This document shows, piece by piece, positions 2 through 33,829 of a stretch of DNA of 33,864 nucleotides. The notes under the pieces are model-generated. The model ran no database searches and had not been told where the DNA came from. It saw only the letters and a list, made by a program, of their open reading frames with translations. Each line of letters starts with the position of its first letter. The stretch's first letter is position 1. This stretch comes from a virus: IMG/VR virus record IMGVR_UViG_3300027870_000010, positions 1 through 33,864 of that record; one strand, given 5' to 3'. The position numbers and the translations under genes were made by a program.

Positions 2-1498
2 CAAGCCACCGGACTACTCGCCGACTCGCCCTGGTGGGTCAAAGCAGCACTCGCCGCCCTCGGCCTCGCAGGCATGGCCACACCAGTCATCGCAGGAGCC
101 CGCATCAGCCGGCGCCGCCGCAACACCACCGGGCCACTCACAGCCAAAGACCGGCGCATGTTTGCTGCCGCCCTCGGCTTCGGCGCCTTCTTCTGGCTCG
201 CCGTCATGGCCGTCAGCTCACGCGGCCTCATCAACTTCGGCCGCCACACCCTCAACTGGCACGACGGCTGGGAATACCTCGTACCCCTCACCCTCGACGG
301 GGCGGCTCTCGCCTTCGGTGTCCTCGCCTTCCGGGCAATCAGCAAAGGCACCAACCCGGACCGGGCGATGCGGATCGTGTGGCTCGCCACCGCAGCATCC
401 GCCGCCATCAACTTCGGCAACGAAGCAGGCGGCACCGCCGGCTCAATGCTCGGCGCCGGATACCTGGCGTTCATGTCCTACCTGTGCATGGCCATGTTCC
501 ACGAGTTCCTGCACCAGTTCGAGGACGCCAACGGTGAAGGCTGGATCAAACGCGACAACCCCAAATTTGGGATGCGCTGGCTGACCTGGCCCACCAACAC
601 CGCCTGCGCCTGGTTCGCGTGGCGGAACTACCCGCCAGTCGCAGACACGCTCGCAACCATCACCAACGCTGTCAGCCACCTCGAAACGGTGCGAGCAGCG
701 AAGCGAGCGCGCCTTGCAGAACGATTCGCCACCGACGAGCGCGGACCGGCCCTGCCGTGGCAGCGGATCAACCAGCTGCGGCAGGTTGTTGAGGAGCAAG
801 CCAAACGGCTCGACGACTACCGGGCCGACGCCGAAGCCAACTGCCAATCGCTTGCCGAACATGGTGCTGTTGTCACGGAACTGCAAACAGCCCACGACAA
901 CCTTGCAGCGAACGCCGCCGCGCTGGCAGCAGACAAGCAGGCGCTGACGGTGGCGCTTGCAGCGCAGGAAGCCGCCGCAGCCGCCGCCATTGCAGAGAAG
1001 GAATTCGCCTACGAGGAAGCTGCCAAGGCTGAGCAGCAGTTGCGGGAGTTGGCAGACAAGCTTGCAGCTGCCAATGCGCACCAGCAGCAACTGTCAGCTG
1101 CAAACGCTGACCTTGCAGCCAAGGCAAGCAAGCTGCCAGACCCTACCGACGCAATCGCCCGCAAGGACAGTGCGCCCGCCAGCAAGGCTGCTGCCAGGGC
1201 AAACAAGGCTGACGTGTCAGCAGTGAAAGCTGGCAGTCAGGCCGAGGAAACCGTCCGGGTGCTGCTCGCCGAGTACAAGCGCAACCCGAAGCGCACCAAC
1301 CAGGAAGTTGCTGAGGCTGCTGCCATCAACGTCTGGACAGCCAACAGGTACATGGCGCAGGTGAAGCGCATGGCAGCAGAACCGGCACCGCAGCAATCAG
1401 AACTGGCAAGCCCTCCGATGTTGCCGCTGCCAAACCCGCGCACACCTGCCACGGCTGGCATCAACGGCCATTCACATGCCAAGGAGCAAACCGCATGA
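2..1498 (+). CDS. DUF2637/SpdB-like membrane protein with coiled coil and HTH, 5'-partial
   Basis: The reading frame is open to the left edge. An internal ATG at 74 exists, but the 24 residues before it (ending WWVKAALAALGLAG) form the start of a membrane helix, so the gene almost certainly begins outside the window. About four further hydrophobic segments follow (nt 160-500), with a TLDGAALAFG segment and an FGNEAGG motif typical of DUF2637 proteins from actinomycete plasmids and AICEs. An Ala/Leu/Gln-rich coiled coil covers about nt 770-1140, and a helix-turn-helix-like segment (NQEVAEAAAINVWTANRYM) lies near nt 1300-1360. The Spd family role is intramycelial plasmid spreading together with TraB at the membrane; this role is inferred. 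The stop overlaps the next start (ATGA, 1495-1498), so the two are coupled. A DNA-binding tail on a membrane anchor fits a complex that holds DNA at the septal membrane. Confidence 0.72.
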   Translation, partial: QATGLLADSPWWVKAALAALGLAGMATPVIAGARISRRRRNTTGPLTAKDRRMFAAALGFGAFFWLAVMAVSSRGLINFGRHTLNWHDGWEYLVPLTLDGAALAFGVLAFRAISKGTNPDRAMRIVWLATAASAAINFGNEAGGTAGSMLGAGYLAFMSYLCMAMFHEFLHQFEDANGEGWIKRDNPKFGMRWLTWPTNTACAWFAWRNYPPVADTLATITNAVSHLETVRAAKRARLAERFATDERGPALPWQRINQLRQVVEEQAKRLDDYRADAEANCQSLAEHGAVVTELQTAHDNLAANAAALAADKQALTVALAAQEAAAAAAIAEKEFAYEEAAKAEQQLRELADKLAAANAHQQQLSAANADLAAKASKLPDPTDAIARKDSAPASKAAARANKADVSAVKAGSQAEETVRVLLAEYKRNPKRTNQEVAEAAAINVWTANRYMAQVKRMAAEPAPQQSELASPPMLPLPNPRTPATAGINGHSHAKEQTA

Positions 1499-1647
1499 CT
1501 GCCACTACTGACCGTCCCGCCGGCGAGCGCCTGCCCGCCACCAACCGTGCCGGAACCGCAGGAGGCGCCATCCGCACCTGGCTGCTGATCGTCGCCGGCA
1601 GGGCCTGCATCTTGATCGCCGCCTACATGACCGCCCGAACCCGATAA
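1495..1647 (+). CDS. Small single-pass membrane protein (50 aa)
   Basis: This 50-codon frame starts at the ATG that overlaps the preceding stop (ATGA) and ends at TAA 1645-1647. It has a polar, Thr/Pro/Arg-rich N-terminus and one hydrophobic helix near the C-terminus (TWLLIVAGRACILIAAYM). Its position between a DUF2637 protein and further Spd-like genes suggests a small accessory subunit of the transfer or spread complex. Small one-helix proteins are common in such clusters, but I do not recognise a named family. Translational coupling and the helix are the main evidence that it is real. Confidence 0.5.
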   Translation: MTATTDRPAGERLPATNRAGTAGGAIRTWLLIVAGRACILIAAYMTARTR

Positions 1648-1662
1648 GGAGCCTGAGCTGCC

Positions 1663-2256
1663 ATGACCGAAGCCGCCGCCCACGTCTACCGGCCCACAGC
1701 ACGGCCCCGACCGGCCGGCGCACCCAACCGCACCACAGACCTACGTCTCATCACCGACAGTGATCCTGAAACCTGCAATGCAGAACCAGGAACACCCGCC
1801 GTTGAGCGTGAAACCTACTTACGGCGCTGGTCAGAGCTGAAATCTGCAATCACCGACAGTGACAGGTGGGTGAAAGTTGGCACCGCCACAATCGCCTACT
1901 TCACCCCACCCGCAGTGTTCACCGACCGACCTGCGTCCCTCGCCGAACTCGCCGCCTACGCCCGCACCGCACCCTGGACAGCCCAGCAGCATGTGGCCAA
2001 GCCGTACACCGACGAAGCCACCGGCAAACAGGTCAAAACCGGTCTGATCCGGGCCGCCGGGATTTGGTACTACCGGGGCGTCGGCTACCCATACACGGTG
2101 TGGTCCCGCTACAAGGAATGGATCATCCAGCGGCCCGGTAGGGCAGTGCCGATCCTCCTTGTCGTCAAGCTTCTCGCCTCCACCAGCTACGGGCAGTGGA
2201 CGGTCGAGCACCTGATCACCCCAGCAGTCCACGCCGTCATGTGGGTCCTGCTGTAA
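1663..2256 (+). CDS. Hypothetical protein of the transfer cluster (197 aa)
   Basis: The ATG at 1663 is preceded by AAGGAG about 12 nt upstream, overlapping the stop of the small gene before it. The first 60 residues are polar and probably disordered. The middle is a compact, Trp/Tyr-containing domain (KVGTATIAYFTPP, WYYRGVGYPYTVWSRYKEW). The C-terminus has two hydrophobic stretches (AVPILLVVKLLAST and ITPAVHAVMWVLL), so membrane association is likely. It lies inside the Spd-like run and is probably co-transcribed with its neighbours. I do not recognise the family; a role in plasmid spread or TraB assistance is inferred from position only. The first 70 codons contain short repeats at the DNA level, described separately. 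Confidence 0.6.
   Translation: MTEAAAHVYRPTARPRPAGAPNRTTDLRLITDSDPETCNAEPGTPAVERETYLRRWSELKSAITDSDRWVKVGTATIAYFTPPAVFTDRPASLAELAAYARTAPWTAQQHVAKPYTDEATGKQVKTGLIRAAGIWYYRGVGYPYTVWSRYKEWIIQRPGRAVPILLVVKLLASTSYGQWTVEHLITPAVHAVMWVLL
1750..1862 (+). repeat. Cluster of short direct repeats inside a transfer gene
   Basis: ATCACCGACAGTGA occurs at 1750-1763 and 1849-1862. TGAAAYCTGCAAT occurs at 1767-1779 and 1838-1850, and a partial copy TGAAACCT is at 1809-1816. Both longer units therefore occur twice within 113 bp, in reversed relative order. They lie inside a coding region, where the 14-mer encodes the peptide ITDSD in frame both times. The repeats may be no more than a small coding duplication. 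A DNA-binding site for a transfer protein is possible but unproven. Confidence 0.35.
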
Positions 2257-2297
2257 CCGCGCACACCATCAAACCCAAAGACATTGAGGAGGTTCCT

Positions 2298-2750
2298 GTG
2301 GCTAAAGGAAAGGGCAAGAGTCGAGGTGTCAAAGCCCTCGCCTGGATTTCGATCGTGCTCGCTGCGGCCGGTGGCGCTGCTGCCACCCCCACACCTATTG
2401 GCACGTTCATCGGTTGGCTGGTGAACCTGCCGCCGGTCTGGTTCGCGCCGTCGCTGCTGTTCGTCCTGGCCGTCATCACCGTCCTCGACCCGGCACTCGA
2501 CGGTGTACCGAACTGGTTGGCTGTCGCTTCCGTGATCGTCATGCCGTCGGTGGCGAAGTCGGTGGACGGGAAGCTCGGCACTGCGGTCACCAACCTCAGC
2601 AATGAGGTCTTGGCCGCCACCAATGAAATGTTGGGGGACTGGCTACCGCAGTCCGTGCCGGCTTTGGTCGCCGCGATCGTGTTGATCGCCTCGGCTGCGT
2701 TGATGGCCCGTCGGGTTGTCCGCAAAATGCCGGGCGGGGCGATCGCCTGA
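2298..2750 (+). CDS. Spd-like integral membrane protein (150 aa)
   Basis: I place the start at GTG 2298, which has a strong TTGAGGAGG ribosome site 6 nt upstream; the longer frame from 2196 would overlap the previous gene. The N-terminus is basic (AKGKGKSRG). It is followed by a hydrophobic helix (ALAWISIVLAAAGGAAA), a second (FAPSLLFVLAVITVLDPAL), a third (WLAVASVIVMPSVAKS) and a last one (VPALVAAIVLIASAALMA) with a basic tail. It is therefore a three- to four-helix membrane protein. It overlaps the next gene by one base (TGATG) and is probably translationally coupled to it. The context is the SpdB-type cluster upstream of a TraB translocase, so a role in the septal or membrane transfer complex is the natural inference. 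Confidence 0.65.
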   Translation: MAKGKGKSRGVKALAWISIVLAAAGGAAATPTPIGTFIGWLVNLPPVWFAPSLLFVLAVITVLDPALDGVPNWLAVASVIVMPSVAKSVDGKLGTAVTNLSNEVLAATNEMLGDWLPQSVPALVAAIVLIASAALMARRVVRKMPGGAIA

Positions 2751-3622
2751 TGGACCCGGTAACCAGCTGCCTGCTGTTCGCGTTCGTGATCATGAAAACG
2801 GTTCGGGCAATCAAAGTCGACCGCGAATACGCCAAACAAGGCATCGTGCCACCCAGCTACCGGCTCGCCGAACGGCTCCTAGAGAAGCGCAAAGCCGCAG
2901 GCACCGCCGCACCCGACGCCACAGTGAAGTCGTACGGGATGCGCGGCTACGCCGGACAACGCTGGCGCGCAATGTGGGAAGACCTCGGCGAGCAACACCT
3001 ACAGACCCGCGCGGCGCAGAAGGCGGAACGAGACCAAGCGCTCGCCGCCGGGGAGCCGGCGCCACGTAAACCCGGACTGCGCGACGGAGCCGCCGCCGCT
3101 TGGCGGTGGGTGATCACCCCCATTGGTGAGCACCAGCCCACACCCCAGCCGGTACGGCCAATCAAAGCCTCACCGGCACCCGCAAGCCCCGCCCCGGCTG
3201 CGACCGCTGCGCCGCAAACACCACCGCCAGGCCCGCCAGTAGACCGGGACCCGGATCCACAACCAGACCCCTCAGCAGCCCAGCCGTCGACCCCCACAAC
3301 ACCCGCAACGAGAGAGAAGGAAGCCAACATGGCAACCACTGGTGAAGTAACCGGCCTGTCCTCCGCCATCGCCTACGCCGAAGCGATGGCCAACGCCCAC
3401 CGATCCCACGCCGGCAGCGAAGGCTACGTCGCATCCCTCGCCAACTTTGAGGTCGGCCAGGGCGACATCGAAAAGGTGCAGTCCGCGATGGAGGCATCCA
3501 ACAACGCCGCCTCCATGTGGGCCGCCGCCGCAGCGTCGATCAAGGAAAGCAACAACGCCACCAAGGAGGCGTACATGACCTCACCGAACGCCGGCAACAA
3601 GCAGTTCGCCACCCAGGAATAG
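2750..3622 (+). CDS. Membrane-anchored Spd-like protein with Pro-rich linker (290 aa)
   Basis: The start overlaps the preceding stop as TGATG. A short hydrophobic N-terminal segment (CLLFAFVIMKTVRAI) is followed by a basic, helical region up to about residue 120. Next comes a Pro/Ala-rich linker (about residues 135-190), then a compact C-terminal domain of about 97 residues, rich in Ala and Asn, with two predicted helices (SSAIAYAEAMANAHR and MEASNNAASMWAAAAASI). The architecture resembles SpdB3-like proteins of actinomycete plasmids, but I assign this by layout only. The C-terminal domain begins at an in-frame ATG with its own ribosome site (see 3329-3622), so the locus may make two products. 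A perfect hairpin follows 8 nt after the stop. Confidence 0.6.
   Translation: MDPVTSCLLFAFVIMKTVRAIKVDREYAKQGIVPPSYRLAERLLEKRKAAGTAAPDATVKSYGMRGYAGQRWRAMWEDLGEQHLQTRAAQKAERDQALAAGEPAPRKPGLRDGAAAAWRWVITPIGEHQPTPQPVRPIKASPAPASPAPAATAAPQTPPPGPPVDRDPDPQPDPSAAQPSTPTTPATREKEANMATTGEVTGLSSAIAYAEAMANAHRSHAGSEGYVASLANFEVGQGDIEKVQSAMEASNNAASMWAAAAASIKESNNATKEAYMTSPNAGNKQFATQE
3329..3622 (+). CDS. Possible internal in-frame start giving a free 97-aa C-terminal domain
   Basis: ATG 3329-3331 lies in frame inside the 290-aa gene. It is preceded by GAGAGAAGGAAG (3312-3323), a purine-rich ribosome site at good spacing and unusual in this GC-rich coding sequence. It falls exactly where the Pro-rich linker ends and a folded Ala/Asn-rich domain begins. 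The product would be a small two-helix protein of about 97 residues directly upstream of an FtsK/TraB gene. The size recalls helical-hairpin partners of FtsK-type ATPases, but no diagnostic WXG motif is present, so I do not call it one. The boundary and ribosome site are seen; the separate product is inferred. Confidence 0.4.
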   Translation: MATTGEVTGLSSAIAYAEAMANAHRSHAGSEGYVASLANFEVGQGDIEKVQSAMEASNNAASMWAAAAASIKESNNATKEAYMTSPNAGNKQFATQE

Positions 3623-3629
3623 CGGCACC

Positions 3630-3665
3630 GTGGGGCGGTCGAGCGATCCGGCTCGACCGCCCCAC
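3630..3665 (+). terminator. Perfect 15-bp hairpin between the Spd-like gene and traB
   Basis: GTGGGGCGGTCGAGC at 3630-3644 is perfectly inverted at 3651-3665, with loop GATCCG. No U-run follows. It lies between the stop at 3622 and the translocase ribosome site (GGAAGGAAAG, 3674-3683). It may act as a partial intra-operon terminator that lowers traB expression, as an mRNA-stabilising structure for the upstream transcript, or as a palindromic protein-binding site. Confidence 0.7.
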
Positions 3666-3687
3666 CACTTAACGGAAGGAAAGAGCC

Positions 3688-5676
3688 GTGACCGTCACCG
3701 TCGACAAGCCGACCGAAACCCCGGACACGGCCACCACCACCCCCACAGACCCGACCCGCCTCGCACCCAAAGCCGCCCCCTACGCGGCCATCGGCGCCCT
3801 CATCCTCGCCGCCGCCGGCCTCCACGCAGCCAAAGAAGCCACCGAACACGACGCACTATTCATTGCCGCCACCGCAGCCACCACCGTCGTTATTGCTGTA
3901 GTGGCCGCAGCCACCCTCAACCTGCGCCTCGACGACAAGAAAGCAGCACAACGCGCAACCGCATTCACCGCCGTGGCCGCCGTATGGCTACCAGTGGTCA
4001 CAGCCACCGGGGTCACCCTCAACGCGGTAGGTGTCCTCACCGCCCTCGGCCTGGCCCTGTCCCTGCACTGGTTTCGGAAACGCCGCATCCCCAACAACAC
4101 CCCCACCCGACCCAAGAACCCAATGTCCGAGCCGTACACCGCCCGATGGGTCGAACACATCGCCTGCCAAGGCGGGCCACTACCCGGCAGCCAGCTACGA
4201 GGCTGGCAGCCCATCCCCGCCGGTGACCGCTACACCCTCGCCCTCGTGCCCGGCAGGCAGTCCATCAACACCATCTTCGGTGTCCTCGAAAACATTCGTA
4301 CCGGGCTAGGTTTGCGCCCCGAACACGACATGATCGTCGAAGCGCACCCCGTACTAGCGTCATCGCACATCCAATTCACGATCGTCACCCGGTCACCCGT
4401 GCGCGAATCGCAGGTGTGGCCCGGCCCTGGCGCCTTCAACCAGCAGACCGGCCGCGTCAACCTCGGCCCGTTCACCGACGGTGAAGGCGTCGCCAGCTGG
4501 AAGGCATACACCGACAACCGGCTGTGGGGCGGTTTCCTCGCTGGCGGTACCGGCTCCGGCAAATCCCGGATGCTCGAATCGGTCGCGTTCTCCCTGGCTG
4601 CTTCCGACAGCCACCCCACCGTCATCTTCTTCGCCGACGGGCAAGGCGGTTCATCGTCACCGCTCATGGTCAAATCCGCTGACCTGGCCGCCATCACCCA
4701 CGAAGCCATCCACTCCATGCTCGCCGGCATGTACCTGGTGATGCGGCTACGGCAGGACGAAAACCTGATCGAAGACCGCGAAGGATTCGCCCCCACCATC
4801 GACCGGCCCGGCCTGCTCGCATTCATTGATGAGTGCCACAAACCGTTGTCGAAGATCGAAAACCCGGAACTGGCCGAACACACCCAATACTTGGCCGCCA
4901 CCATCGCCCGCGAAGGCGGCAAAGTCGGGGTCGGCATCGTCCTCGCCTCCCAAGAATCAACACTCGGGGCGTTCGGCGGTGCCGGAAACCTGGCCGAAAT
5001 GCTGCGCTCCAACCTGCTCATGGGCAACGGCATCATCCTGCGCAGCAAAGACGCCAACGCCAAGCAGGTCTTCGGCGTCGACATCAGCCCCAAAAGTTTC
5101 CCCGAACTCGCCGGCTACGCGTTCTGCGTCGACCGGGAACCGGGCGGGCGTAGCGCGCCATTCCGGGGCTACTACGTCACCGATGAACAGCGCCAATATT
5201 GGCCCGGACGCATCGACTGGAAGTCCCTCGATCGCGGTGCCGGGAACGCATACGGACCCGACTACGGGCGACGGCGTGAAGTCGTGACCGCAGCCAAGGA
5301 GGCCGCGCGGCTACGGGTGGAGGCACGGCGGGCCGGGCGCCCAATCCCCGACGACCTGTCCGAGCGGGCAACCCAACCGCCCACCGCCCAGCCTGCTGCC
5401 GTCGGGTTCAACATCATTAACTTCCCGACCTGGCAGACAACAGCCGCAGATAACACCGACAGCCGCCCGGCCGCAGAACTCCACAAAGGGCATCGTGCCG
5501 TGCTAGACCAAATCGCATCCGGCATCACTTCACCGGCGGCACTCGCCAACGCCACCGGCTACTCCGAACGGCAAATCCACAACCTGCTAGACGAGCTGAT
5601 GGACGACCACACACTCGTCGAGCGGGCCAAGCGCGGCACCTACGTCCTCACCAAGGCACGGGAGACACGCAACTAA
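3688..5676 (+). CDS. traB: FtsK/SpoIIIE-type DNA translocase, TraB-like conjugation protein
   Basis: GTG start with GGAAGGAAAG 4 nt upstream. The N-terminus (residues 30-130) holds about four hydrophobic helices. The motor domain has Walker A AGGTGSGKS (285-293, K292) and Walker B LLAFIDE (376-382). After the motor, a low-complexity linker leads to a C-terminal winged-helix domain (about 599-655; SPAALANATGYSERQIHNLL). TM segments, FtsK motor and C-terminal winged helix are the hallmark order of actinomycete TraB/TraSA proteins. These assemble as hexamers at the hyphal membrane and pump double-stranded plasmid DNA into the recipient, with the winged helix reading short repeats at clt. The length (662 aa) is in that family's range. 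A chromosomal FtsK is less likely given the plasmid-type neighbours and lack of a gamma-domain-like KOPS context. No clt repeat array is obvious beside it. Confidence 0.85.
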   Translation: MTVTVDKPTETPDTATTTPTDPTRLAPKAAPYAAIGALILAAAGLHAAKEATEHDALFIAATAATTVVIAVVAAATLNLRLDDKKAAQRATAFTAVAAVWLPVVTATGVTLNAVGVLTALGLALSLHWFRKRRIPNNTPTRPKNPMSEPYTARWVEHIACQGGPLPGSQLRGWQPIPAGDRYTLALVPGRQSINTIFGVLENIRTGLGLRPEHDMIVEAHPVLASSHIQFTIVTRSPVRESQVWPGPGAFNQQTGRVNLGPFTDGEGVASWKAYTDNRLWGGFLAGGTGSGKSRMLESVAFSLAASDSHPTVIFFADGQGGSSSPLMVKSADLAAITHEAIHSMLAGMYLVMRLRQDENLIEDREGFAPTIDRPGLLAFIDECHKPLSKIENPELAEHTQYLAATIAREGGKVGVGIVLASQESTLGAFGGAGNLAEMLRSNLLMGNGIILRSKDANAKQVFGVDISPKSFPELAGYAFCVDREPGGRSAPFRGYYVTDEQRQYWPGRIDWKSLDRGAGNAYGPDYGRRREVVTAAKEAARLRVEARRAGRPIPDDLSERATQPPTAQPAAVGFNIINFPTWQTTAADNTDSRPAAELHKGHRAVLDQIASGITSPAALANATGYSERQIHNLLDELMDDHTLVERAKRGTYVLTKARETRN

Positions 5677-6407
5677 TGATGGGAAAATCCCACGCGCTCA
5701 GCGGCGCCACCGTGTGGCTAGCCGGCTGCGCAACGGCGAGCGCCTTCGATAACCATCCCGCCGCCGCGACCATCGCAGTCGGCGCGATCGTCACCGCCGG
5801 ATCATCACTGCTACCCGACATTGACCACCCAGGCTCGACAGTCGCCCGAACCCTCGGGCCGATCACCCGCCTACTCGCCGGCGGCATCAACGCCGGAGCG
5901 AGCGCTTTGCGAGGTGCCACCTGCGGTTGCTGCACCAGGAAAGGCGGACACAGGGCCGTCACACACACCGCAGCATTCGCTGTCAGCATCGGGTCGGCGG
6001 TTTCGCTGCTCGGCTGGATCGCTGGCCAAACAACCGCGCTGGTCATCGCCGGCGCACTATCGGCGCTCGCAGTTCGCGGGGTGTTTAAGCGGCGCACCCG
6101 TGGCATGTTCGGGTCGCTGCTGGCGGGGGTGACGGTGGCCGCCCTAGCTTCGTTTCTTCCGGCCCCGCACGGCTGGTGGTGGATTGGTGTTCCGGTCGGG
6201 CTCGGCTGCGCCATCCACGCCATGGGGGATGCGCTCACGTACAGCAGGGTGCCGTTCCTGTGGCCGATCCGCCTCGCGGGCTGCCGTTGGGCGCCGGTCG
6301 GCATGTGGGGTCCGCTGCGATTCCGCACAGGGGGAGTAATCGAACTGTGGTTGATCGTTCCCGCCATGATCGCTGCCGGCGGCTATAGCCTCTACCGGCT
6401 GGCATAG
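5676..6407 (+). CDS. DUF457 (YdjM-type) membrane-bound metal-dependent hydrolase
   Basis: The start overlaps the traB stop (TAATG), with a second ATG three bases on. The metal-ligand pattern of the LexA-regulated YdjM/DUF457 family is complete: H6 near the N-terminus, PDIDHPGS (D48, D50, H51), HRAVTH (H92, H97) and HAMGDALT (H182, D186). Several hydrophobic helices separate the motifs, so the active site sits at the membrane. A CGCC segment (about 83-86) precedes the second motif. The substrate of this family is not firmly established; phospholipid-like or envelope substrates are plausible. Tight coupling to traB suggests that it modifies or protects the membrane at the transfer site, or acts in exclusion; that role is inferred. 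Confidence 0.78.
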   Translation: MMGKSHALSGATVWLAGCATASAFDNHPAAATIAVGAIVTAGSSLLPDIDHPGSTVARTLGPITRLLAGGINAGASALRGATCGCCTRKGGHRAVTHTAAFAVSIGSAVSLLGWIAGQTTALVIAGALSALAVRGVFKRRTRGMFGSLLAGVTVAALASFLPAPHGWWWIGVPVGLGCAIHAMGDALTYSRVPFLWPIRLAGCRWAPVGMWGPLRFRTGGVIELWLIVPAMIAAGGYSLYRLA

Positions 6408-7911: not shown

Positions 7912-8256
7912 TTAGGGAAGCACCTCGACCGGGCCAGACATCGGCGACACCTGGCCGCGAGTCAGCAGCGCAAACACCGCCAGCACCAAACCAGTCAGCG
8001 CGCCAACAGTGGCGTCCGGGACGTGCAAGTTGTACTGGGCCAGCACCGCAACAGCGGCAGCAATGACACCAGTGAACGCGGCCGGCGCGAACGGGCGGGT
8101 AGCCCACGCCATCACACCCGCCGATACCAGTGCAGCGATCGCGGAGGCGGCACCAGCGGACAGGCCCGGCACGCTAGTGGACGCGGCGAACGTGAGCAGG
8201 CCACCGATCACGGCGACGATGAGGGCCGGTTCGCGACCAAACACCTTGTAGATCAT
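7912..8256 (-). CDS. Putative holin, last gene of the phage late operon (114 aa)
   Basis: The start is ATG 8256, with AAGGAG 7 nt upstream; longer in-frame starts would ignore this site. Three hydrophobic segments are visible (LIVAVIGGLLTFAAST, AASAIAALVSAGVMAWA and FTGVIAAAVAVLAQYNL), followed by a fourth, weaker one (LTGLVLAVFALLTRG). The short polar N-terminus (MIYKVFGREP) and multi-helix body without a signal peptide match actinophage holin-like proteins, which make pores so that the endolysin reaches the cell wall. Position beside a GH25 endolysin supports this. No holin family is assigned by motif, so the call rests on topology and place. Confidence 0.62.
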   Translation of the reverse strand: MIYKVFGREPALIVAVIGGLLTFAASTSVPGLSAGAASAIAALVSAGVMAWATRPFAPAAFTGVIAAAVAVLAQYNLHVPDATVGALTGLVLAVFALLTRGQVSPMSGPVEVLP

Positions 8257-8334
8257 CAGGAAACTCCTTAACGTTTTTGGGCAGCCGTCATCGGCCGCCA
8301 ATTGCGGATCAAGAGGAAGGAAAGAAGGCTGCGG

Positions 8335-8607
8335 CTACGGGTGGGCGGCCAATGCTGCTTTGATCTGCTGGATTTCGTCGCGCATTGAGGAACCCCCGTT
8401 AGGTTTAACCTCATGCTCAATTCGGCTGATGCGGTCCATCACCCCGAGGCGTTCAGGCACACCAGGGCGGGCAGGCTCACCGATCCAGTCGTCCAAAAAC
8501 GATTCGATCTTCTTCCATGTCCGGTACACCAGTCGTCCTCCGACGCCTAAAACGCCGGCAGCGCCGCCGACAACGGTCACAGTTCCGGCAGCCTGAACAA
8601 CATCCAC
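8335..8607 (-). CDS. Small one-helix membrane protein with coiled-coil tail, lysis cassette (90 aa)
   Basis: GTG start with AAAGGG about 8 nt upstream. One N-terminal helix (AGTVTVVGGAAGVLGVGGRLVY) is followed by a charged helical region (TWKKIESFLDDWIGEP) and a C-terminal coiled-coil-like stretch (MRDEIQQIKAALAAHP). Small actinophage proteins of this shape (DUF2746-like) usually sit between endolysin and holin and are thought to be second holins or antiholins. The family name is only tentative, from size and layout. It lies between the GH25 gene and the multi-helix holin candidate, so an N-in pinholin or holin partner is a reasonable inference. Confidence 0.58.
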   Translation of the reverse strand: MDVVQAAGTVTVVGGAAGVLGVGGRLVYRTWKKIESFLDDWIGEPARPGVPERLGVMDRISRIEHEVKPNGGSSMRDEIQQIKAALAAHP

Positions 8608-8682
8608 GAATATGCCCTTTACGGTTGTGCGCCGGCCACTCCACGTCGCCGGCCGTTTGTTTCGGGTCGGCTTCCGGGCCGG

Positions 8683-9684
8683 TCAGCTTGCCGCCGCACC
8701 AGCGGCCATGATTTTGGCGAGTTCCACCGCGAGCGCACGCTCATCAACAGCACCGGCCTGCCACGACTGAACCACCGCGCGCACCGCATCCAGCTGTGTC
8801 GACAGAACCGTCATCTGCGCGGCCAAACCGGCCACGCCGGCAGGCCCGCCCAGCACTGCAGCCTCAAACAGGTACGACCACAACGTCTGCGCCGAAATGT
8901 TGGTGTTCCATGGCGGAGACGCCGACGACAGGCGCTTAGCTGGCCCCGCCGCCAGCGCGAACGGGGCGGCAAGAGCCTTCTGCACTGCGGCAACAATCTG
9001 CTCTTCGGTCACGTCAGAACCTCCCGGATAGACAAGGCTGATCAGGTCGGCGACCGAACCACGGAATGCGTTCGCGTCGCAGGTGACCTGCGATCCGATG
9101 CGGGTCTGTGACCCGTACTGCCAAATGGCCGGTGTCTGCCCCGAATAAGGAGCCCACCGGTAATCGCCGTCACCCGTGTACGCGGCCCGGAAGGGGACAC
9201 CGACAGCGTTCACATACGCGGACGCCCACAGCGGAAACCCCAAGCCGCGAAGGGTGTCGCCGTACAACCAGCGAGGCGCATAAACGACCGGCCGGAACCG
9301 GCCGCCAGTCCGCTCAACCAGCCGGTCACAAAACTGGCGGATCTCAGCCAGGTTCGGCGCCCGATCCATGTACGGAAACTTTTCCGCATCCACCTGCAAC
9401 AGGAACGGGCCTTCACGCCAACCCGGCGCCTGCTGATCAAGCAAGGTAAGAAACCGGTCAGCCTGCGTGATCTGGTTGCCGGGATGGTTGACGTAGTAGG
9501 CGCCCAACACGGGCACCACACCGCGCGCCTGCCCCCACCAGCGGGCAAAAAACGGGTCCGTGTAGTCGACGCCCTCACCGATTTTGTGGGTCGCGAAGCT
9601 GATACCGGCCGCGACCGCAGCTTTCATATCGACCGGGCCGCGACCGTGATCAAAGTTGGAAATATCCCACCCGAAGATGGCCAC
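8683..9684 (-). CDS. GH25-family endolysin (muramidase)
   Basis: The start is GTG 9684 with GGAGG 5 nt upstream, so the protein begins VAIFGWDISNFDHG. Residues 3-200 form a glycoside hydrolase family 25 domain: D7 in GWDIS, the catalytic DxE pair in LLQVDAEKF (D99, E101), and late motifs WASAY and IWQYGSQ. These enzymes cleave the MurNAc-GlcNAc bond of peptidoglycan. The C-terminal 110 residues are helical and Ala-rich (TEEQIVAAVQKALAAPFALA), like the wall-binding or multimerising tails of other actinophage lysins, without a known repeat motif. There is no signal peptide, so release would rely on the holin candidates downstream. It follows the fibre gene and begins the lysis cassette. Confidence 0.9.
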   Translation of the reverse strand: MAIFGWDISNFDHGRGPVDMKAAVAAGISFATHKIGEGVDYTDPFFARWWGQARGVVPVLGAYYVNHPGNQITQADRFLTLLDQQAPGWREGPFLLQVDAEKFPYMDRAPNLAEIRQFCDRLVERTGGRFRPVVYAPRWLYGDTLRGLGFPLWASAYVNAVGVPFRAAYTGDGDYRWAPYSGQTPAIWQYGSQTRIGSQVTCDANAFRGSVADLISLVYPGGSDVTEEQIVAAVQKALAAPFALAAGPAKRLSSASPPWNTNISAQTLWSYLFEAAVLGGPAGVAGLAAQMTVLSTQLDAVRAVVQSWQAGAVDERALAVELAKIMAAGAAAS

Positions 9685-9709
9685 AGTGACCTCCTGCCGA
9701 GTGGTGTGG

Positions 9710-11929
9710 TTAGGCGACAGCCCGGACGGCCAGGACTTCAACAACCACATTCGAGCCGGCCACCGTGGAACCGACCTGCGTGATGCTGGTAGTCAGATAG
9801 GTGCCCGCTGGCCAAGCCGTAATGTCGGCGTTCGTGACCCGACCCGAACTGTTAGTGCCGGCCGCGATCGTCGGCCGGTTTGCGGTGGTGGTGAAGATCG
9901 TCGTGCCGCCCTTTTGCACATCCACGACCAGACTCGTACCTGTAGGGGCAGTGCCGGCCGAAGCCCACACAGCCACAATTTCCAGGTCTGCGCCCGTGTT
10001 GTTGTAGTAGCGGCCACTGACCTGACCCGTGGCTGCCGTGCCGTCCTTAATCCACCGGTACGGAATACCGAGATCCAGATAGCGGGCTGCCACAAACGAG
10101 CCAAGATTGCTGGCAGTCATCAACTGGCGCGGACCGGAACCGGCCTGAGCCCAAAGCTCAAACACGCCATCAGGGCCTTGGAACATGGGGATAGAGCCGA
10201 CCGCACGGCCGTCCGTGCCGTCCGACGTGGTCACCGAAGAGATCGCACCGCCGGACATGTCCAGCAGGTCCGTCCACTGCGTGCCACCAGTGCGCGCGTT
10301 GTAAAACGTGACCGTGGTGCCGCCCTGAAGGATGGCGGTATTACTCGCACCGACGCCGACCGAGAAGTCCTGGACAGCGTCACCGAAATGGAGTCTGGTC
10401 AAAGCGGTCGACGCCCCCAACATTTCCGAATCGAGGTAGCCGGTCTGCTCCGCAGTGACGGCGTTGGCATACGTGCCGTGATGGCCATTGCCGGACGAGT
10501 CGACCGCGACCGTGGCGCCGTCGGCCTCGTTCAATTTCCAAAAAGCGACAAGTCCGGTGGCGAGGGTCGTCAACACCTGCGTGTCATAGGTGCCGGCCAG
10601 GCGCGCCGTTTGCAGGTTGGCGATCTCCCCGTCCGTCAGCCGGCGACTCCACATCGCCACCCGGGCCACCGAGCCCTGAAAGTAGCTCGCCCCATCGCGG
10701 GAACCGACCCGGAAATGGGCCGAGCCGGCAGTTGGAACAATGTTTGGCCCGCCCGTAGGTGACTGGTCCAACAGGTCGTTGTCGCGCGGTAGCCCGTCCT
10801 TAAAGATGCGGACCGTTGTCGCATCCCACGCGCCCGTGACCATGAACCAGCCGCCCGGCAACAGGTCGTCCTGAAAGTAGGAGCCGTTACCCAAACCGCC
10901 GGACGGGTTGAACGCGTAACAGGAGCAGCGGTTGGCGCGGTTTTCGCTGTTGCCCCGCTGGTACATGCGGAACGTGTATTCCTGATTACCCGAAACCCCG
11001 TATGTGTCGCCCTTGCCCATGTAGTGGACATAGTCGCGGGGAGCGGCACCCTCCGCTTGCGTCATATACAGCGAATCCGGGCGTACCAGGGCCACAATCG
11101 TCAGCTCATGCGTCGTAGCAATCGAGTAGGCGGCGTTGTTGCCCAAATCGACGTACTGGGTGGCGCCATCAAACAGGACACACGAATCCGGAACGCCCTT
11201 CTCAATCGGGCGAGTGTCCGAAAAAATGTTGTTGTCGAAGATGGTGGCCGACGTCGGATCAAACACGCCAGGGTATGCGTCCGCATCAACGCCGATCTCG
11301 TCCATCCAAAACGCGTTAACGCTCGCCGCGTTGGAGGTGACACCAAACCGCCACGTGTCCACGTATCCGCCGGTGTTCTTGTTCGCGGCGCTCGTCTTAG
11401 TGTCTGTGGGGGTGGTGGAGTCGAACGTGTTGAAATATTTGATTTCCATCTGACCGACCGACGGGTCGCCCACGATTTTCGCCTCGACCCGAATCCACTG
11501 ATTCAAGGCGATCGAGTTCGAGAACTCATCGATGGTTCCACCGGCGGCGTCGAGAGTCCGCAAATGGCCAGTCGTGGTGATCAAAATTCCGGCACGCGAC
11601 AAGCCGGCACCGACCGCCGTGAACAGGCGATGGTTGGCTGCCGGCAGCGCCGTCATGTACAGGTAAAACCTGATGTAGCTGGCGGTTAGCTTTCCCAGGC
11701 GCGACGAGTTCCAGGCAACAAACGGAGTCACCGGTGTCGCGCCGGTCGCCACTTTCATGGACAAGACGCCGTGCGCAGCATGAGTGCTGCTGAACTGCAT
11801 CGTCGCCCCGGTGCCGACAGACACCGTGTTGAAACCGTCACCCGACATGCCGCCCGAAAGGGCCTCGGTGATGGTCACGCCATCAGTGCCACCTTCAAAA
11901 CTGTTGATCGTGGGAACAATGGCGCCCAT
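9710..11929 (-). CDS. Tail fibre/appendage protein with LamG-like lectin domain (739 aa)
   Basis: The ATG directly follows the TAG stop of the previous gene. An N-terminal beta-rich domain (residues 1-215; SYIRFYLYMTALP, DTWRFGV, FWMDEIGVD) resembles a carbohydrate-binding jelly roll. A concanavalin A/LamG-like domain spans about 225-470 (CVLFDGATQYVDLGNN, WFMVTGAWDATTVRIFKDG, GSVARVAMWSRRLTDGEI, VAFWKLNEADGATVAVDSSG). Such LamG_3 modules bind glycans. The C-terminal third holds a GGTQWTDLLD segment and another beta domain (TGQVSGRYYNNTGAD), repeating features of siphovirus tip proteins. It lies between the tail tip genes and the endolysin, so it is the best candidate for the receptor-binding protein. 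Confidence 0.75.
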   Translation of the reverse strand: MGAIVPTINSFEGGTDGVTITEALSGGMSGDGFNTVSVGTGATMQFSSTHAAHGVLSMKVATGATPVTPFVAWNSSRLGKLTASYIRFYLYMTALPAANHRLFTAVGAGLSRAGILITTTGHLRTLDAAGGTIDEFSNSIALNQWIRVEAKIVGDPSVGQMEIKYFNTFDSTTPTDTKTSAANKNTGGYVDTWRFGVTSNAASVNAFWMDEIGVDADAYPGVFDPTSATIFDNNIFSDTRPIEKGVPDSCVLFDGATQYVDLGNNAAYSIATTHELTIVALVRPDSLYMTQAEGAAPRDYVHYMGKGDTYGVSGNQEYTFRMYQRGNSENRANRCSCYAFNPSGGLGNGSYFQDDLLPGGWFMVTGAWDATTVRIFKDGLPRDNDLLDQSPTGGPNIVPTAGSAHFRVGSRDGASYFQGSVARVAMWSRRLTDGEIANLQTARLAGTYDTQVLTTLATGLVAFWKLNEADGATVAVDSSGNGHHGTYANAVTAEQTGYLDSEMLGASTALTRLHFGDAVQDFSVGVGASNTAILQGGTTVTFYNARTGGTQWTDLLDMSGGAISSVTTSDGTDGRAVGSIPMFQGPDGVFELWAQAGSGPRQLMTASNLGSFVAARYLDLGIPYRWIKDGTAATGQVSGRYYNNTGADLEIVAVWASAGTAPTGTSLVVDVQKGGTTIFTTTANRPTIAAGTNSSGRVTNADITAWPAGTYLTTSITQVGSTVAGSNVVVEVLAVRAVA

Positions 11930-21831: not shown

Positions 21832-22260
21832 CTACTCCTGGGGTGTGGAAGTGAAGGAGAAGAAGACGGGCACGCTGAACACCGGCCTTCCGTTGATGCG
21901 GACCGTTTCGTCGCGGCGCGGAATGTCAGGACCGCCCGGCAAATGGCTGATGAGGCTGGTGTTGCGGCCTTCGATCAGCGGATGTTTTCGATGCAGCGCG
22001 GCCGTGCAGCGGTCGGCAGCGGCCAACGTTTCGGCGATGTCACGGCCGACGACGGTGACCTGAAACTTGGCGTGGGCTTCCCCGCCGTAGCCGGCCAACG
22101 TGACCGTCAGCCGAGACGCGGGAGCCGCCCAAATAACCAGGTAGGGGAGCTGCAGTTCGCTGTCTGGTGCGGTGACCTCACCGGCATAAACCGGGTATGG
22201 GGTGCTGTCTTCCAGCAGGTATTGGATGGCGGCCAAATGGTCGCGGCTGGGATCACTCAC
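21832..22260 (-). CDS. Tail terminator-like protein (142 aa)
   Basis: The protein fits the size and alpha/beta layout of lambda gpU/HK97 gp10-region tail terminators: N-terminal helix (SRDHLAAIQYLLEDS), strand pair (PVYAGEVTAP and LPYLVIWAAPASRLTVTLAGYG), then AKFQVTVVGRDIAETLAAADR and a long C-terminal half with HPLIEGRNTSLI and FSVPVFFSFTS. Family members cap the tail tube and join it to the head. Gene order (neck, terminator, small genes, major tail) agrees. The start overlaps the neck gene stop by ATGA (22257-22260). Confidence 0.68.
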   Translation of the reverse strand: MSDPSRDHLAAIQYLLEDSTPYPVYAGEVTAPDSELQLPYLVIWAAPASRLTVTLAGYGGEAHAKFQVTVVGRDIAETLAAADRCTAALHRKHPLIEGRNTSLISHLPGGPDIPRRDETVRINGRPVFSVPVFFSFTSTPQE

Positions 22261-22643
22261 CGCAGCGGCCCATGCTTGGCGAGCACCAGCTCTAGCGCCG
22301 ACACAAAGTCAGGTGTTGCCCGGTCAAGGGCCGGTCCGAGGAAGGCGTGTGGCGCCATCCGGGCGGTGCCGTGCTCAAGGAATGGCGCGTAGTGCGTTTC
22401 GGCACCAACATCAACCTCGACGGCAGTGCCGCGCAGACGTGGCTGTTTCGGGTCCAGGCCGATCGAGTCGCGGGTCGCACCGGTCTTGTAGGGCACGAAC
22501 TGCTTCGCAACCTGCTCGACCCGCAGCGCGGATGCGGCAACAATCGGCACCACAGCGGGCCCGATTTCCTTCGCGGACTGGGCCATACCGTCGGCCAACC
22601 CGATCAGGTGATCTACCCCGTCGAAACGGACAGAAATCGTCAT
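22257..22643 (-). CDS. HK97 gp10-like neck protein (128 aa)
   Basis: ATG start with GGAGGTGACGGCCG before it (purine core 9-14 nt upstream). The sequence has the gp10/neck pattern: N-terminal strand (MTISVRFDGVDHLI), a long central helix (VPIVAASALRVEQVAKQF), the VPYKTGATRDSIGL segment that is the family's best-known signature (usually P-x-x-T-G-x-L/T-R-x-S), and the EVDVGAETHYAPFLEHGTARM region ending in the Y-A-x-x-x-E-x-G-T motif. These proteins join the head connector to the tail. It is translationally coupled to the tail terminator downstream and lies next to the odd plus-strand gene. Confidence 0.82.
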   Translation of the reverse strand: MTISVRFDGVDHLIGLADGMAQSAKEIGPAVVPIVAASALRVEQVAKQFVPYKTGATRDSIGLDPKQPRLRGTAVEVDVGAETHYAPFLEHGTARMAPHAFLGPALDRATPDFVSALELVLAKHGPLR

Positions 22644-22682
22644 CGGCCGTCACCTCCGGCCGTTGCCCTAGTTGCGCGAGGC

Positions 22683-23036
22683 ATGTCACAGACGGAGCAA
22701 GACGACGCTGGCGATGTCGAAGAGCAGCTCAGAGCACCAGCGCCGGTCGTCGCCGTGGTGCTGCTGATCGCCGGGCTCGCCGCGTACACCGTGTTCAAAG
22801 CCGCAGTTGGCTTCGGCCTACCGGGCCTGATCGGCGGTGCAGTGATCGCCGCCATCTACGGGGCGGTCGGCTACTCGGCGTGGAAGGGGCAACGCAAAGC
22901 GATCATCGGGGTTTGTGTCCTCGGCGGCCTGGCCGTATTCGGGGGTTTCGCAGGAAACCCGGGCACGCTCCTGTTCGGTGCGCTCCTACTCGGCTGTGCG
23001 CTCATACCCGAATCGGCGCGCGCCTGGCTGGCCTAA
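22683..23036 (+). CDS. Multi-pass membrane protein on the opposite strand of the late operon (117 aa)
   Basis: ATG 22683 gives a 117-aa protein in the frame that runs on to TAA 23034-23036. The first 23 residues are acidic (SQTEQDDAGDVEEQLRAPAP). Then come about four hydrophobic segments (VVAVVLLIAGLAAYTVF, GLIGGAVIAAIYGAVGYSAW, AIIGVCVLGGLAVFGGF and GTLLFGALLLGCALIP). A longer frame from 22347 would run across the neck gene and is not supported. The gap it fills has no minus-strand gene of its own: neck ends its start region at 22643 and the head gene stops at 23033, with overlapping convergent stops (CTAA). Ribosome site is weak (GCGAGGC). It looks like a moron: membrane-located exclusion or immunity is plausible, function unknown. 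Confidence 0.6.
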   Translation: MSQTEQDDAGDVEEQLRAPAPVVAVVLLIAGLAAYTVFKAAVGFGLPGLIGGAVIAAIYGAVGYSAWKGQRKAIIGVCVLGGLAVFGGFAGNPGTLLFGALLLGCALIPESARAWLA

Positions 23037-23470
23037 CGGTTCGTGGCCGGCAACAGATCGCAGTACAGGTCCTGCTCCCAGCGCGTTGATCCACGCCAAA
23101 CGTCAACGACGGTGAGCTGCACACCCACAAGATTCAGATCGTGTGCCGCACCAGTCACCGTCACCACATCGTTGACCAACACAAGCAGGCTGCTGGCAGG
23201 CAACGTGACCAGATAGGGCACCTCATGCACCTGCCGGTCACCAACGTCAGCGGAACCATTGGACCGGCCTGCCCTGCGCTGCACCCGGCACCGGCCGGCA
23301 TAAATGCCGTCAGCCTCCACGTACACGCTGCGGCCGGTCGCCTCATCAAACGCTGTGGCGTGGCTCGACGGCCGGGTGATTGCGCACTCGGCCGTCTGCG
23401 TCTGCGCGATCGTCGCCGCATGATGCACCTGAAACAGGGGGTGGATGATGCGTGTACCTGGCAGCGGCAT
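23033..23470 (-). CDS. Head closure/stopper-like protein (145 aa)
   Basis: ATG start with GGGGTGAG about 4 nt upstream. The protein is beta-rich, with a central AVYVEADGIYAG-like stretch (GRSVYVEADGIYAGRCRV), then LVTLPASSLLVLVNDVVTV and a C-terminal LVGVQLTVVDVWRGST segment. Small proteins of this shape (DUF6093-like) sit between the head-tail connector and neck in actinophages and act as stopper or head-closure proteins. The family assignment is tentative; position and fold support it. Its stop meets the stop of the plus-strand membrane gene. Confidence 0.6.
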   Translation of the reverse strand: MPLPGTRIIHPLFQVHHAATIAQTQTAECAITRPSSHATAFDEATGRSVYVEADGIYAGRCRVQRRAGRSNGSADVGDRQVHEVPYLVTLPASSLLVLVNDVVTVTGAAHDLNLVGVQLTVVDVWRGSTRWEQDLYCDLLPATNR

Positions 23471-24751: not shown

Positions 24752-24941
24752 AACCGCCCCCCTTTCGTCGGGTTAGCGGTTACGGAACGAAGTCGCGGGT
24801 TAGGGGCAGCCCCGGCAGCCGGCACACAAGTCCTGACTGCCGGGGCGCATCCCCCGGAATGCCCGCACACACAGGGGGTGTTTGAAACGTGCACAGGCCG
24901 GCCGCGTGAATCACACGAGACGGCCCGCACACACGGTGGCG
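24752..24941. other. Non-coding gap inside the late operon with hairpin and short repeat
   Basis: No supportable gene is found in this 190-bp stretch between two minus-strand genes. It contains a perfect 9-bp inverted repeat, CCCCGGCAG (24810-24818) and CTGCCGGGG (24837-24845), with an 18-nt loop. GCCCGCACACAC appears twice (24861-24872 and 24923-24934). The gap is large for this tightly packed operon and could hold a terminator-antiterminator or promoter for the downstream genes. Confidence 0.5.
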
Positions 24942-26247: not shown

Positions 26248-26295
26248 GGTGGCGTCCTTTCAAAGGGGGCGGCCCGGCTTCCGGGCACGACGAAT

Positions 26296-26325
26296 AGGCC
26301 CGGCACCCGTGATCGGGTGGGGCCT
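26296..26325. terminator. Hairpin upstream of the major capsid gene
   Basis: CACCCG and CGGGTG pair around a TGAT loop, and AGGCCC pairs with GGGCCT outside a two-base bulge, giving a 12-bp stem. It lies in the 176-bp interval between the decoration gene and the capsid gene (26248-26423). It may be a weak terminator or an mRNA 5' structure for the capsid message. Confidence 0.5.
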
Positions 26326-26374
26326 GAAAGAAAGAGGTGTGGAGAGTGGTGGCGTCTGCGGGTGGGCGCCTAGG

Positions 26375-26408
26375 TCAGGCGGGCCAACCTGGGGCTAGGC
26401 CCGCCTGA
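26375..26408. terminator. Perfect 11-bp hairpin after the decoration gene
   Basis: TCAGGCGGGCC (26375-26385) is perfectly inverted as GGCCCGCCTGA (26398-26408), with a 12-nt loop. It lies 15 nt beyond the decoration-protein stop in minus-strand transcription, the place of a terminator or processing structure. Together with the hairpin at 26296-26325 it could set the ratio between decoration and capsid messages. Confidence 0.6.
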
Positions 26409-26423
26409 ACCTGAGGGGATGGT

Positions 26424-30304: not shown

Positions 30305-31840
30305 CTACATCGGCATGCTCAAAAAGTTGGTGGACTGGCTATGACCGAACGCCCGGTCGCCGATCGGATCGGCGTGGCTCACAGCCGTGACAGCCGCCCG
30401 CTGATCGGTGTACGGCAGCATCAGCCGGTTAATCGCCTGAGACATCGCATCAACCTGGTCATCATGTGCACCGAGCGGAAACGACGACGCCTCCTCAACC
30501 AGCCCCTCAGCCCACGGCGCGATCTCCGGCGCAGGCAAAAAAACACTGCCGGCCTCAACAAACGGCGAAACCGCCGCAGCACGAGCCACCTTCGACCCGT
30601 CCGGCTGAACCGGCACCAAACCAGGCACCGTCTTCCGCAACGCGTTAATCACAGCAGTGCCGTTAGCTTTGTCCTCCACCAACTTCAACGCGGCGTCCGG
30701 CCACTTCGCCGACAAGGCCCGCACCGCATGGCAGGTGTCAACAAACGACAGCCGGTCCCGGACCTGATCCAGCAGGTACACGCTGGCGCCGCGACGGCCC
30801 CACACCTGACCCACCACATAGTCGGAAGACTCGGTGTCCTTAAACGCCATATCCCACGACTGGATCACTTGATCGAAGCCGATCGCATACATGTGACCCG
30901 ATTCGGTACAACGCCACGGCGGGTTGCTGTACTGCTGCCACCAGCCGCGCTGAAAGATGGTGCCCTCACCCGGGCTCGGACGGCCCTGACAGAGGGCATT
31001 CCATGCCCGGGAGCCCATCTCCCTTTTGCGCTGCTCCCAGTCGGCGGCAGTACGGCCGCGCGCTGAGACAAGGTATTCGCCCGGCGCGCGGCCCAGCGGG
31101 TCAGTTTCACCCTTGGCTGGGTCGTGGTCGGCTTGGGCGGGAATGTTGATGACCCGCCAGGCAACGCCGTCGTCACGTTTTTGGAGCCAGCCGGACAGGT
31201 CGTCGTCCCGCCACCGGGTTTGGATGATCACCACAGCGACACCGGGGCCAAGGCGGGGGATAGCGACCTCGGTCCAAAAGTCCCGAACCGTGTCCTGCCA
31301 GGCTTTCGAGTCGGCCTGCTCGCCGTCCTTGTACGGATCATCGATAATCAGGAGATCGACGGGCCGTGACGTCAACGAACCCTTGATACCTACGCAGTAG
31401 ACGCTGCCCGTGTGGCCTTCAAGGTCCCACTCGTGAGCAGCCGACGATGCAGGATCGACCCGCAACCCAAGCTCAGGATGGTCAACGATGTCATCCCGGA
31501 TGGCCTTGCCCCAACGCCGGGCGACGCCGTGCGCGTACGACACGATCGCAATCCGCAAGCTCGGATTCCGCAACAGCGACCACAGCGGAAACCGCCGCGA
31601 GGTGCGCTGCGACTTCCCTTCCTGAGGTGCAAGTGCGAGCAGGAGACGTTTGCAGCGGCCCTCAGCCACATCCGTGAGCGCCTGGTCGATCAGATCCAGC
31701 GCCGGTGTCTGCACAGTCATCGGATCGAGTGCGAGCGCCAGCTCCCCTGGGGTGGCGTAGTTGGCGCTCGCCTCGGGTGGATCAACGGCAGCAGCGAACG
31801 CGGTGAAGAAGGCGGCATCGATGTCGGGTGCGAGCGTCAC
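30305..31840 (-). CDS. Terminase large subunit (511 aa)
   Basis: GTG 31840 with GAAGGGGGTG about 4 nt upstream. ATPase: a variant Walker A APQEGKSQ (71-78, K76), Walker B LLIIDD (163-168) with following DPYKDGEQADS, and a coupling motif IIQTRWRDDDLSGWL. The nuclease domain follows (VIQSWDMAFKDTESSDYVVG with the first acidic residue, VEDKANG, and the late HDDQVDAMSQA), the three acidic patches of the RNase H-like terminase nuclease. It pumps DNA into the procapsid through the portal and cuts the concatemer. The neighbours are the likely small subunit upstream and the portal downstream. Confidence 0.9.
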   Translation of the reverse strand: MTLAPDIDAAFFTAFAAAVDPPEASANYATPGELALALDPMTVQTPALDLIDQALTDVAEGRCKRLLLALAPQEGKSQRTSRRFPLWSLLRNPSLRIAIVSYAHGVARRWGKAIRDDIVDHPELGLRVDPASSAAHEWDLEGHTGSVYCVGIKGSLTSRPVDLLIIDDPYKDGEQADSKAWQDTVRDFWTEVAIPRLGPGVAVVIIQTRWRDDDLSGWLQKRDDGVAWRVINIPAQADHDPAKGETDPLGRAPGEYLVSARGRTAADWEQRKREMGSRAWNALCQGRPSPGEGTIFQRGWWQQYSNPPWRCTESGHMYAIGFDQVIQSWDMAFKDTESSDYVVGQVWGRRGASVYLLDQVRDRLSFVDTCHAVRALSAKWPDAALKLVEDKANGTAVINALRKTVPGLVPVQPDGSKVARAAAVSPFVEAGSVFLPAPEIAPWAEGLVEEASSFPLGAHDDQVDAMSQAINRLMLPYTDQRAAVTAVSHADPIGDRAFGHSQSTNFLSMPM

Positions 31841-33130: not shown

Positions 33131-33829
33131 TTACTTCTGCCGGAGTGGCAAACAGGCTTCGCCCTGGTCGTCCAGCAGCTTGGCGAGGTCCTCGCCGCGG
33201 ATTTTGGCGGTGCCGTTGTCGCCCCAACTGGCAGACCAGGAGTTGCAGATCGTGAAGTAGCCGTCTTCGATGTTGACGCCGATGATCAGATAGCAGTGGC
33301 CGCCAGCGACAGCACCGGACACGTCGAGGAAACCGTCCGGGCCGGGGGTGAACATCTGCTGTAGCCACTTGGTGCCGACCACTACCGGGCCGTGCTGGGA
33401 GATGGCGGCAGCAACGTCGGTGATGTCGGTCGTCCAGTGGTACGAGGTGTAGAAGCCGCGACGCCTCGCCACCTTCGCCCCGGCCAGCACACTCGTGCCG
33501 CCGTAGACAGGCTTAGCGCCCGGGTATTCGCCGCCGCGCTGGCCGTCGCAACGCTGCGCGTCGTAGTAGAAACCGACCGCGTACGGGTGATCCAGTTCGG
33601 GATGCGGCATCGGCTCGGCGATCAGTTCGTGGCTGAAGCCGTGGCCGACGCACGAACCCTGCTGGCCCTGGTCGAGCACCTTCGAGATGGGCCACAGCCG
33701 GGACACAACCGGCGCTGCCTGGTCGAGGACAGCGGACATCGGGAAGTTGGCGCTGGCCGGGTCGTCCTGGTGGATGCGGCCTAGGCGAGGGTCGGTGACC
33801 GTGCTGCCATCGCGCAGGGTGTGAGTCAT
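33131..33829 (-). CDS. Papain-like (C1-type) cysteine protease (232 aa)
   Basis: ATG 33829 begins a protein without signal peptide or propeptide of the usual length. The papain active-site pattern is complete: oxyanion Q54 and nucleophile C60 in DQGQQGSCVGHGFS, H178 in GGHCYLII and N196 in CNSWSASWGDNG, the NSW-x-x-x-WG motif of the C1 family. The N-terminal 50 residues (DDPASANFPMSAVLDQAAP) may be an uncleaved leader. C1 peptidases occur in some actinophages and bacteria; the substrate here is unknown. Position first in the visible operon, before the terminase genes, suggests a role in virion maturation, in host protein cleavage or in defence/counter-defence. It probably stays in the cytoplasm or travels with the head. 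Confidence 0.85.
   Translation of the reverse strand: MTHTLRDGSTVTDPRLGRIHQDDPASANFPMSAVLDQAAPVVSRLWPISKVLDQGQQGSCVGHGFSHELIAEPMPHPELDHPYAVGFYYDAQRCDGQRGGEYPGAKPVYGGTSVLAGAKVARRRGFYTSYHWTTDITDVAAAISQHGPVVVGTKWLQQMFTPGPDGFLDVSGAVAGGHCYLIIGVNIEDGYFTICNSWSASWGDNGTAKIRGEDLAKLLDDQGEACLPLRQK

Follow-up and report, generated by a model that had tools for sequence, protein, structure and literature searches.

The late operon and the inserted frame

The DNA analysed here (the window) is the whole IMG/VR virus record IMGVR_UViG_3300027870_000010, 33,864 bases in length, in which the late genes lie on the minus strand. The late block runs from holin-family genes (7912-8607) through the endolysin, tail, neck, and head genes to the terminase gene (30305-31840). 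The largest gap in this operon, 389 bp, lies between the neck gene and a DUF6093 gene. It is followed in size by two gaps of 190 and 176 bp (24752-24941 and 26248-26423), to which no gene has been assigned, and most of the remaining ones are shorter than 30 bp or negative. It was found that a lone plus-strand ORF of 117 codons (22683-23036; ATG at 22683, TAA at 23034-23036) fills the 389-bp gap, as an earlier note made from the sequence had claimed. The start codons of this ORF and of the minus-strand neck gene (at 22643) are divergent and separated by 39 bp, while its TAA overlaps with the convergent stop codon of the DUF6093 gene (complement of 23033-23035); this arrangement, too, is as the note had described it. 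Elsewhere in the window, a papain-family (C1) cysteine protease gene (33131-33829) lies beyond the terminase gene. The plus-strand early block (74-6407) includes genes for a DUF2637 protein, a YdjM-like membrane protein, and a 662-aa, weakly FtsK/SpoIIIE-like protein which is 52% identical to one in a related record (L002, see below).

The proposed identities of the two flanking genes hold. The neck gene (22257-22643, minus strand) matches phrog_5 and TIGR01725/PF04883, which places it in the HK97-gp10 family of neck or tail completion proteins. The product of the other gene (23033-23470, minus strand) matches DUF6093 with an E-value of 1e-23, and the gene in the same position of the phage Hestia (gp11) is annotated as a head-to-tail stopper.

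Is the plus-strand frame coding? Its GC content by codon position is 0.73/0.50/0.76, as compared with roughly 0.65/0.50/0.77 in the late genes of this phage. The mirror frame of the minus strand resembles it in GC profile but contains several stop codons. A codon model was trained on 22 late genes, and the frame was compared with 265 non-coding frames of 117 codons and 53 coding windows. The score of the plus frame (0.162) exceeds those of all 265 non-coding frames (maximum, 0.161) and is low among late genes, at about the 4th percentile of the coding windows; several plus-strand early genes also have low scores. Since the plus frame only narrowly outscores the best non-coding frame, the family match described below is the stronger evidence for coding. 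The low rank is consistent with another origin or another expression programme. On these grounds and that match, the plus-strand ORF is a real gene. A rival minus-strand ORF (22640-22855; 71 aa), whose stop codon overlaps with the neck start codon as ATGA, might have been a displaced gene, but this reading was discarded: the composition of the ORF is non-coding (GC by codon position, 0.50/0.81/0.69; codon score below zero). The earlier note had named a minus-strand gene conserved in relatives as what would speak against its reading, and this ORF has no counterpart there.

An empty site in relatives

The nearest relative found is a 108-kb IMG/VR record (L002), whose capsid protein is 69% identical and whose gene order is the same. 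There, the DUF6093 stop codon and the neck start codon overlap by 4 nt. Seventeen cases were clear enough to be compared, namely L002, the phages TripleJ, Montesquieu, and Hestia, and 13 chromosomal DUF6093 loci from genomes of the order to which Micromonospora costi belongs; three more loci were left out, as their neck or DUF6093 match was not clear. In all 17, the neck match starts between -6 and +22 nt from the DUF6093 stop codon. The neck and stopper-like genes are thus adjacent in relatives lacking the plus-strand gene, the very comparison that the earlier note had proposed. Since these genes abut in all clear relatives, the interval from 22644 to 23032, which has no counterpart in them, is an insertion.

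The last DUF6093 codons of many relatives contain the Shine-Dalgarno box of the neck gene (GGAGGTGAC followed by GTGA). The window keeps GGAGGTGA ahead of the neck gene (22650-22657, minus strand; recognised from the sequence and its relatives), whereas the DUF6093 gene ends 389 bp away. This is what would be expected if the insertion took place at the end of the DUF6093 gene, and we infer that the insert entered at its very end and that the ribosome site of the neck gene was retained.

A nameless family of four-helix membrane proteins

Scans of the 117-aa protein against Pfam, NCBIfam, PHROGs, and PADLOC gave nothing above chance, and PDB sequences gave a single weak match (E 0.27). With tblastn, neither this protein nor one of its homologues (L055) had a match in phages and plasmids. 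Pattern-based IMG/VR scans with the protein and two alignments also found none; this method reaches only relatives sharing short peptides, so its result is weak evidence. In these phage and IMG/VR searches, no second phage carrying the gene was found. A phylum-level search gave only chance-like matches within longer proteins, some of them permease-like. A scan of contigs with the protein missed a family which six-frame searches of genomes found. M. costi hosts the closest chromosomal prophage found (L009). When the whole genomes of its order were searched, a group of matches near full length emerged, mostly at the end of short ORFs.

The members of this family (L048-L074 and, in part, L024-L031) are mostly 110-140 aa in length and have three conserved motifs: PxPV close to the N-terminus, W[KR]G following the second helix, and PxSxRxW at the C-terminus. 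In an alignment of 16 sequences, P19, P21, W67, and P109 are invariant, while V22, R113, and W115 are nearly so; the phage protein fits all of them. A profile of 22 chromosomal members, from which the window protein was excluded, matches it end to end with 44.4 bits, as compared with at most 25.1 bits for 5,000 shuffles preserving the helix and loop composition and 4.6 bits for the reversed protein. When the close group of first-found members was removed, the profile performed about equally (46.8 versus 24.6 on the uncorrected scale). The best single match, L066, is 37% identical over 107 residues (E 2.6e-7), and family members share just 19-37% identity with the phage protein. The statement of the earlier note that the protein has no family match was wrong, for it is a phage-borne member of a nameless family of chromosomal four-helix membrane proteins of Micromonospora. 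With the profile, the family was detected in 30 of the 251 genomes of the taxonomic family of M. costi and in 29 of the 121 of the genus, a patchy distribution. L066 and L067 carry an N-terminal module (GWYxDP...WWDGTQWT), probably DUF2510, in fusion with the four-helix domain.

An AlphaFold2 model based on the window protein and 15 relatives has four membrane-length helices (residues 20-43, 45-67, 72-88, and 93-107) and a short C-terminal helix, with a mean pLDDT of 74 and a pTM of 0.55; the structure modelled from the single sequence was poor. The four-helix membrane protein announced by the earlier note is borne out by this model, while a plain hydropathy scan alone shows three clear helices. 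A structure search with the model found no neighbour at E < 0.4.

Chromosomal copies: mobility and promoters

In one well-sampled subfamily (L084), a unit made up of the gene, about 35 bp of upstream sequence, and about 10 bp of downstream sequence recurs in six other genomes at 87-95% identity. The homology ends at the edges of the unit, so that islands of 470-510 bp are found at unrelated loci in seven Micromonospora-type genomes (L084:9949-10458, with matches in G474, G606, G650, G977, G981, and G985). Where the L084 flanking sequence is present in those six genomes, it is located elsewhere. Since the homology stops at the edges and the flanks lie elsewhere, this subfamily moves as an isolated single-gene unit. 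No terminal repeats were seen in the aligned island edges, no conserved neighbours in the 1.5-kb flanks of the chromosomal copies, and no tRNA gene directly beside the copies examined. Adjacent to the island are two stretches of about 110-150 bp (L084:8999-9112 and L084:10457-10660) which are 77-91% identical to many sites in other Micromonospora genomes; they seem to be a dispersed repeat, in which a tRNA search was negative. In another group (MIEQ-type), three copies share a syntenic block some kilobases off, and they may lie within one variable region.

A TANNNT box ending 6 or 7 nt before the start codon was found in 23 of 26 family copies (a few starts were chosen by eye). As TANNNT occurs about once per kilobase in the window, this count is far above chance, although the copies are related and non-independent. 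In leaderless actinobacterial promoters, TANNNT is centred 7-12 bp before the start site, and leaderless genes make up 26% of the Mycobacterium tuberculosis genes with a primary start site (PMC3898074). The arrangement in the family is that of such promoters. The box is to be regarded as a promoter trait and not as a defining feature of the protein family. In L055-L058 and in L071, the -10 box is flanked by an inverted repeat (CGGA-N7-TCCG and CCGA-N7-TCGG, respectively), possibly an operator altered on both sides.

It may be speculated that there is a class of naked single-gene mobile units of about 500 bp, each composed of a membrane gene and a built-in leaderless promoter, which move between unrelated Micromonospora sites with no visible transposase or terminal repeats, also enter phages, and spread by protecting cells or prophages against threats such as phages or the membrane-active toxins of neighbours. 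I consider the existence of such a class rather doubtful.

Expression of the phage copy, and its host

As the gene is opposite to the late operon, it requires separate transcription. No consensus -10 box, sigma-70-type promoter, or terminator was found for the phage copy, nor a clear Shine-Dalgarno box. Its best -10-like hexamer is TAGTTG (22669-22674, plus strand), which lies 8 nt before the ATG and is not a TANNNT box, in contrast to the box 6-7 nt before the start in the chromosomal family. The N-terminus of the phage protein is also longer by about 11 residues than the commonest chromosomal start would give. Judging from the sequence, expression seems to be the weakest link in reading this gene as a moron.

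The host of the phage probably belongs to the Micromonosporaceae, because the nearest chromosomal prophage found lies in M. costi and the gene family has its habitat there. No tyrosine or large serine integrase gene was found in the window, so the argument for a temperate habit rests on the relatives in bacterial genomes. Tyrosine or large serine integrase genes were seen near the ends of two long related records, possibly as parts of the same prophage.

A moron by position and origin, and the alternatives

Morons within virion operons are well known, and the criteria for them include independent expression from an own promoter and the lack of a function in morphogenesis or lysis (PMC2629481). 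The moron candidacy put forward in the earlier note stands with respect to position and origin, given the 17 empty sites, the bacterial relatives, and the four-helix membrane protein. I estimate the probability that this is an inserted, host-type membrane gene of the family in a siphovirus, and in that sense a moron, at about 0.8. It is suggested by the bacterial family, and by the absence of the gene from relatives with complete neck genes, that it plays no part in morphogenesis or lysis.

Could there be no gene at all, but a chance frame in GC-rich DNA, running over a spacer or a degraded minus-strand gene between the neck and DUF6093 genes? Long accidental frames are indeed common in the window (206 ORFs of at least 60 aa), and the protein has no curated family and no viral homologue among those searched, but the codon score, the GC content by codon position, the empty site in relatives, and the end-to-end family match together render this hardly credible. 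Nor is a lytic-cycle gene (a holin, antiholin, lysis timer, or assembly helper) which came to lie on the opposite strand by happenstance at all probable. Holins are typically small multi-helix membrane proteins, and the gene is located among virion genes; however, the phage already has holin-family genes and an endolysin gene more than 13 kb away, at 7912-9750, the protein has no holin match at E-values up to 1, its relatives are bacterial and not phage proteins, and its strand is opposite to that of the late operon.

A recent passenger is a more serious alternative, although still an unlikely one. The gene might have entered via illegitimate recombination, lost its promoter, and been tolerated with no effective expression since it breaks neither neighbour. 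Consistent with this, only one phage copy is known, its codon score is at the low end of the late genes, and it lacks the leaderless consensus -10 box of 23 of the 26 chromosomal copies. Still, an ordinary non-consensus promoter may serve it, and the frame is intact over 117 codons with all of the family motifs kept. At an identity of 19-37%, such preservation points to selection through most of the history of the gene.

Under the preferred reading of a captured, host-type moron, the phage would have taken up the membrane gene at a spot where no gene is broken. Transcription of the gene would be separate from that of the late operon and would most likely take place in the lysogen, and the gene product would reside in the cytoplasmic membrane and benefit the host and the prophage, most likely via superinfection exclusion or a related envelope change. 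Such a role, that is, the blocking of DNA entry of other phages or an effect on the envelope, is proposed tentatively and has somewhat less than even odds; it is favoured because small membrane or membrane-anchored proteins borne by phages are known to exclude. HK97 gp15, Tuc2009 Sie, and TP-J34 Ltp block DNA entry (PMC10883804). HK97 gp15 is likewise a predicted inner membrane protein encoded by an extra gene of a long-tailed temperate phage (PMC10883804), whereas its exclusion function has been tested; it is likened to the present protein by description, and kinship is not implied. No link between the protein family and phage exclusion was found. Immunity to membrane-active toxins or another effect on host fitness may be the next likeliest role.

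The Arthrobacter phages TripleJ (gp17), Hestia (gp18), Faja, and Seahorse, whose neck or tail proteins are related to those of the window, also have a small membrane gene opposite to the structural genes. These genes differ from the present one: their products are 84 aa in length with two helices, they occupy another slot, and the sequences are unrelated as far as seen. In the two maps read, TripleJ gp17 (L010:7888-8142) and Hestia gp18 (L012:6504-6758) are flanked by the tail assembly chaperone and tape measure genes. The closest likeness is to the Micromonospora family, which shares length, four helices, and the three motifs with the phage protein but is chromosomal and mostly preceded by the TANNNT box. 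An opposite-strand membrane moron is of a kind already known; within the reach of the present searches, the protein family appears to be new, and so does the mobility seen in some chromosomal members.

A direction of traffic is suggested by these results, in which a membrane gene of bacterial type has lodged in a virion operon with no gene broken. The moron candidate now belongs to a traceable family with many chromosomal copies, so that genetically tractable bacteria could be used to look for its function. A limited literature search found no study of prophage exclusion in antibiotic-producing actinomycetes. Should the family offer protection from phages, it would represent a new small-protein defence in these bacteria.
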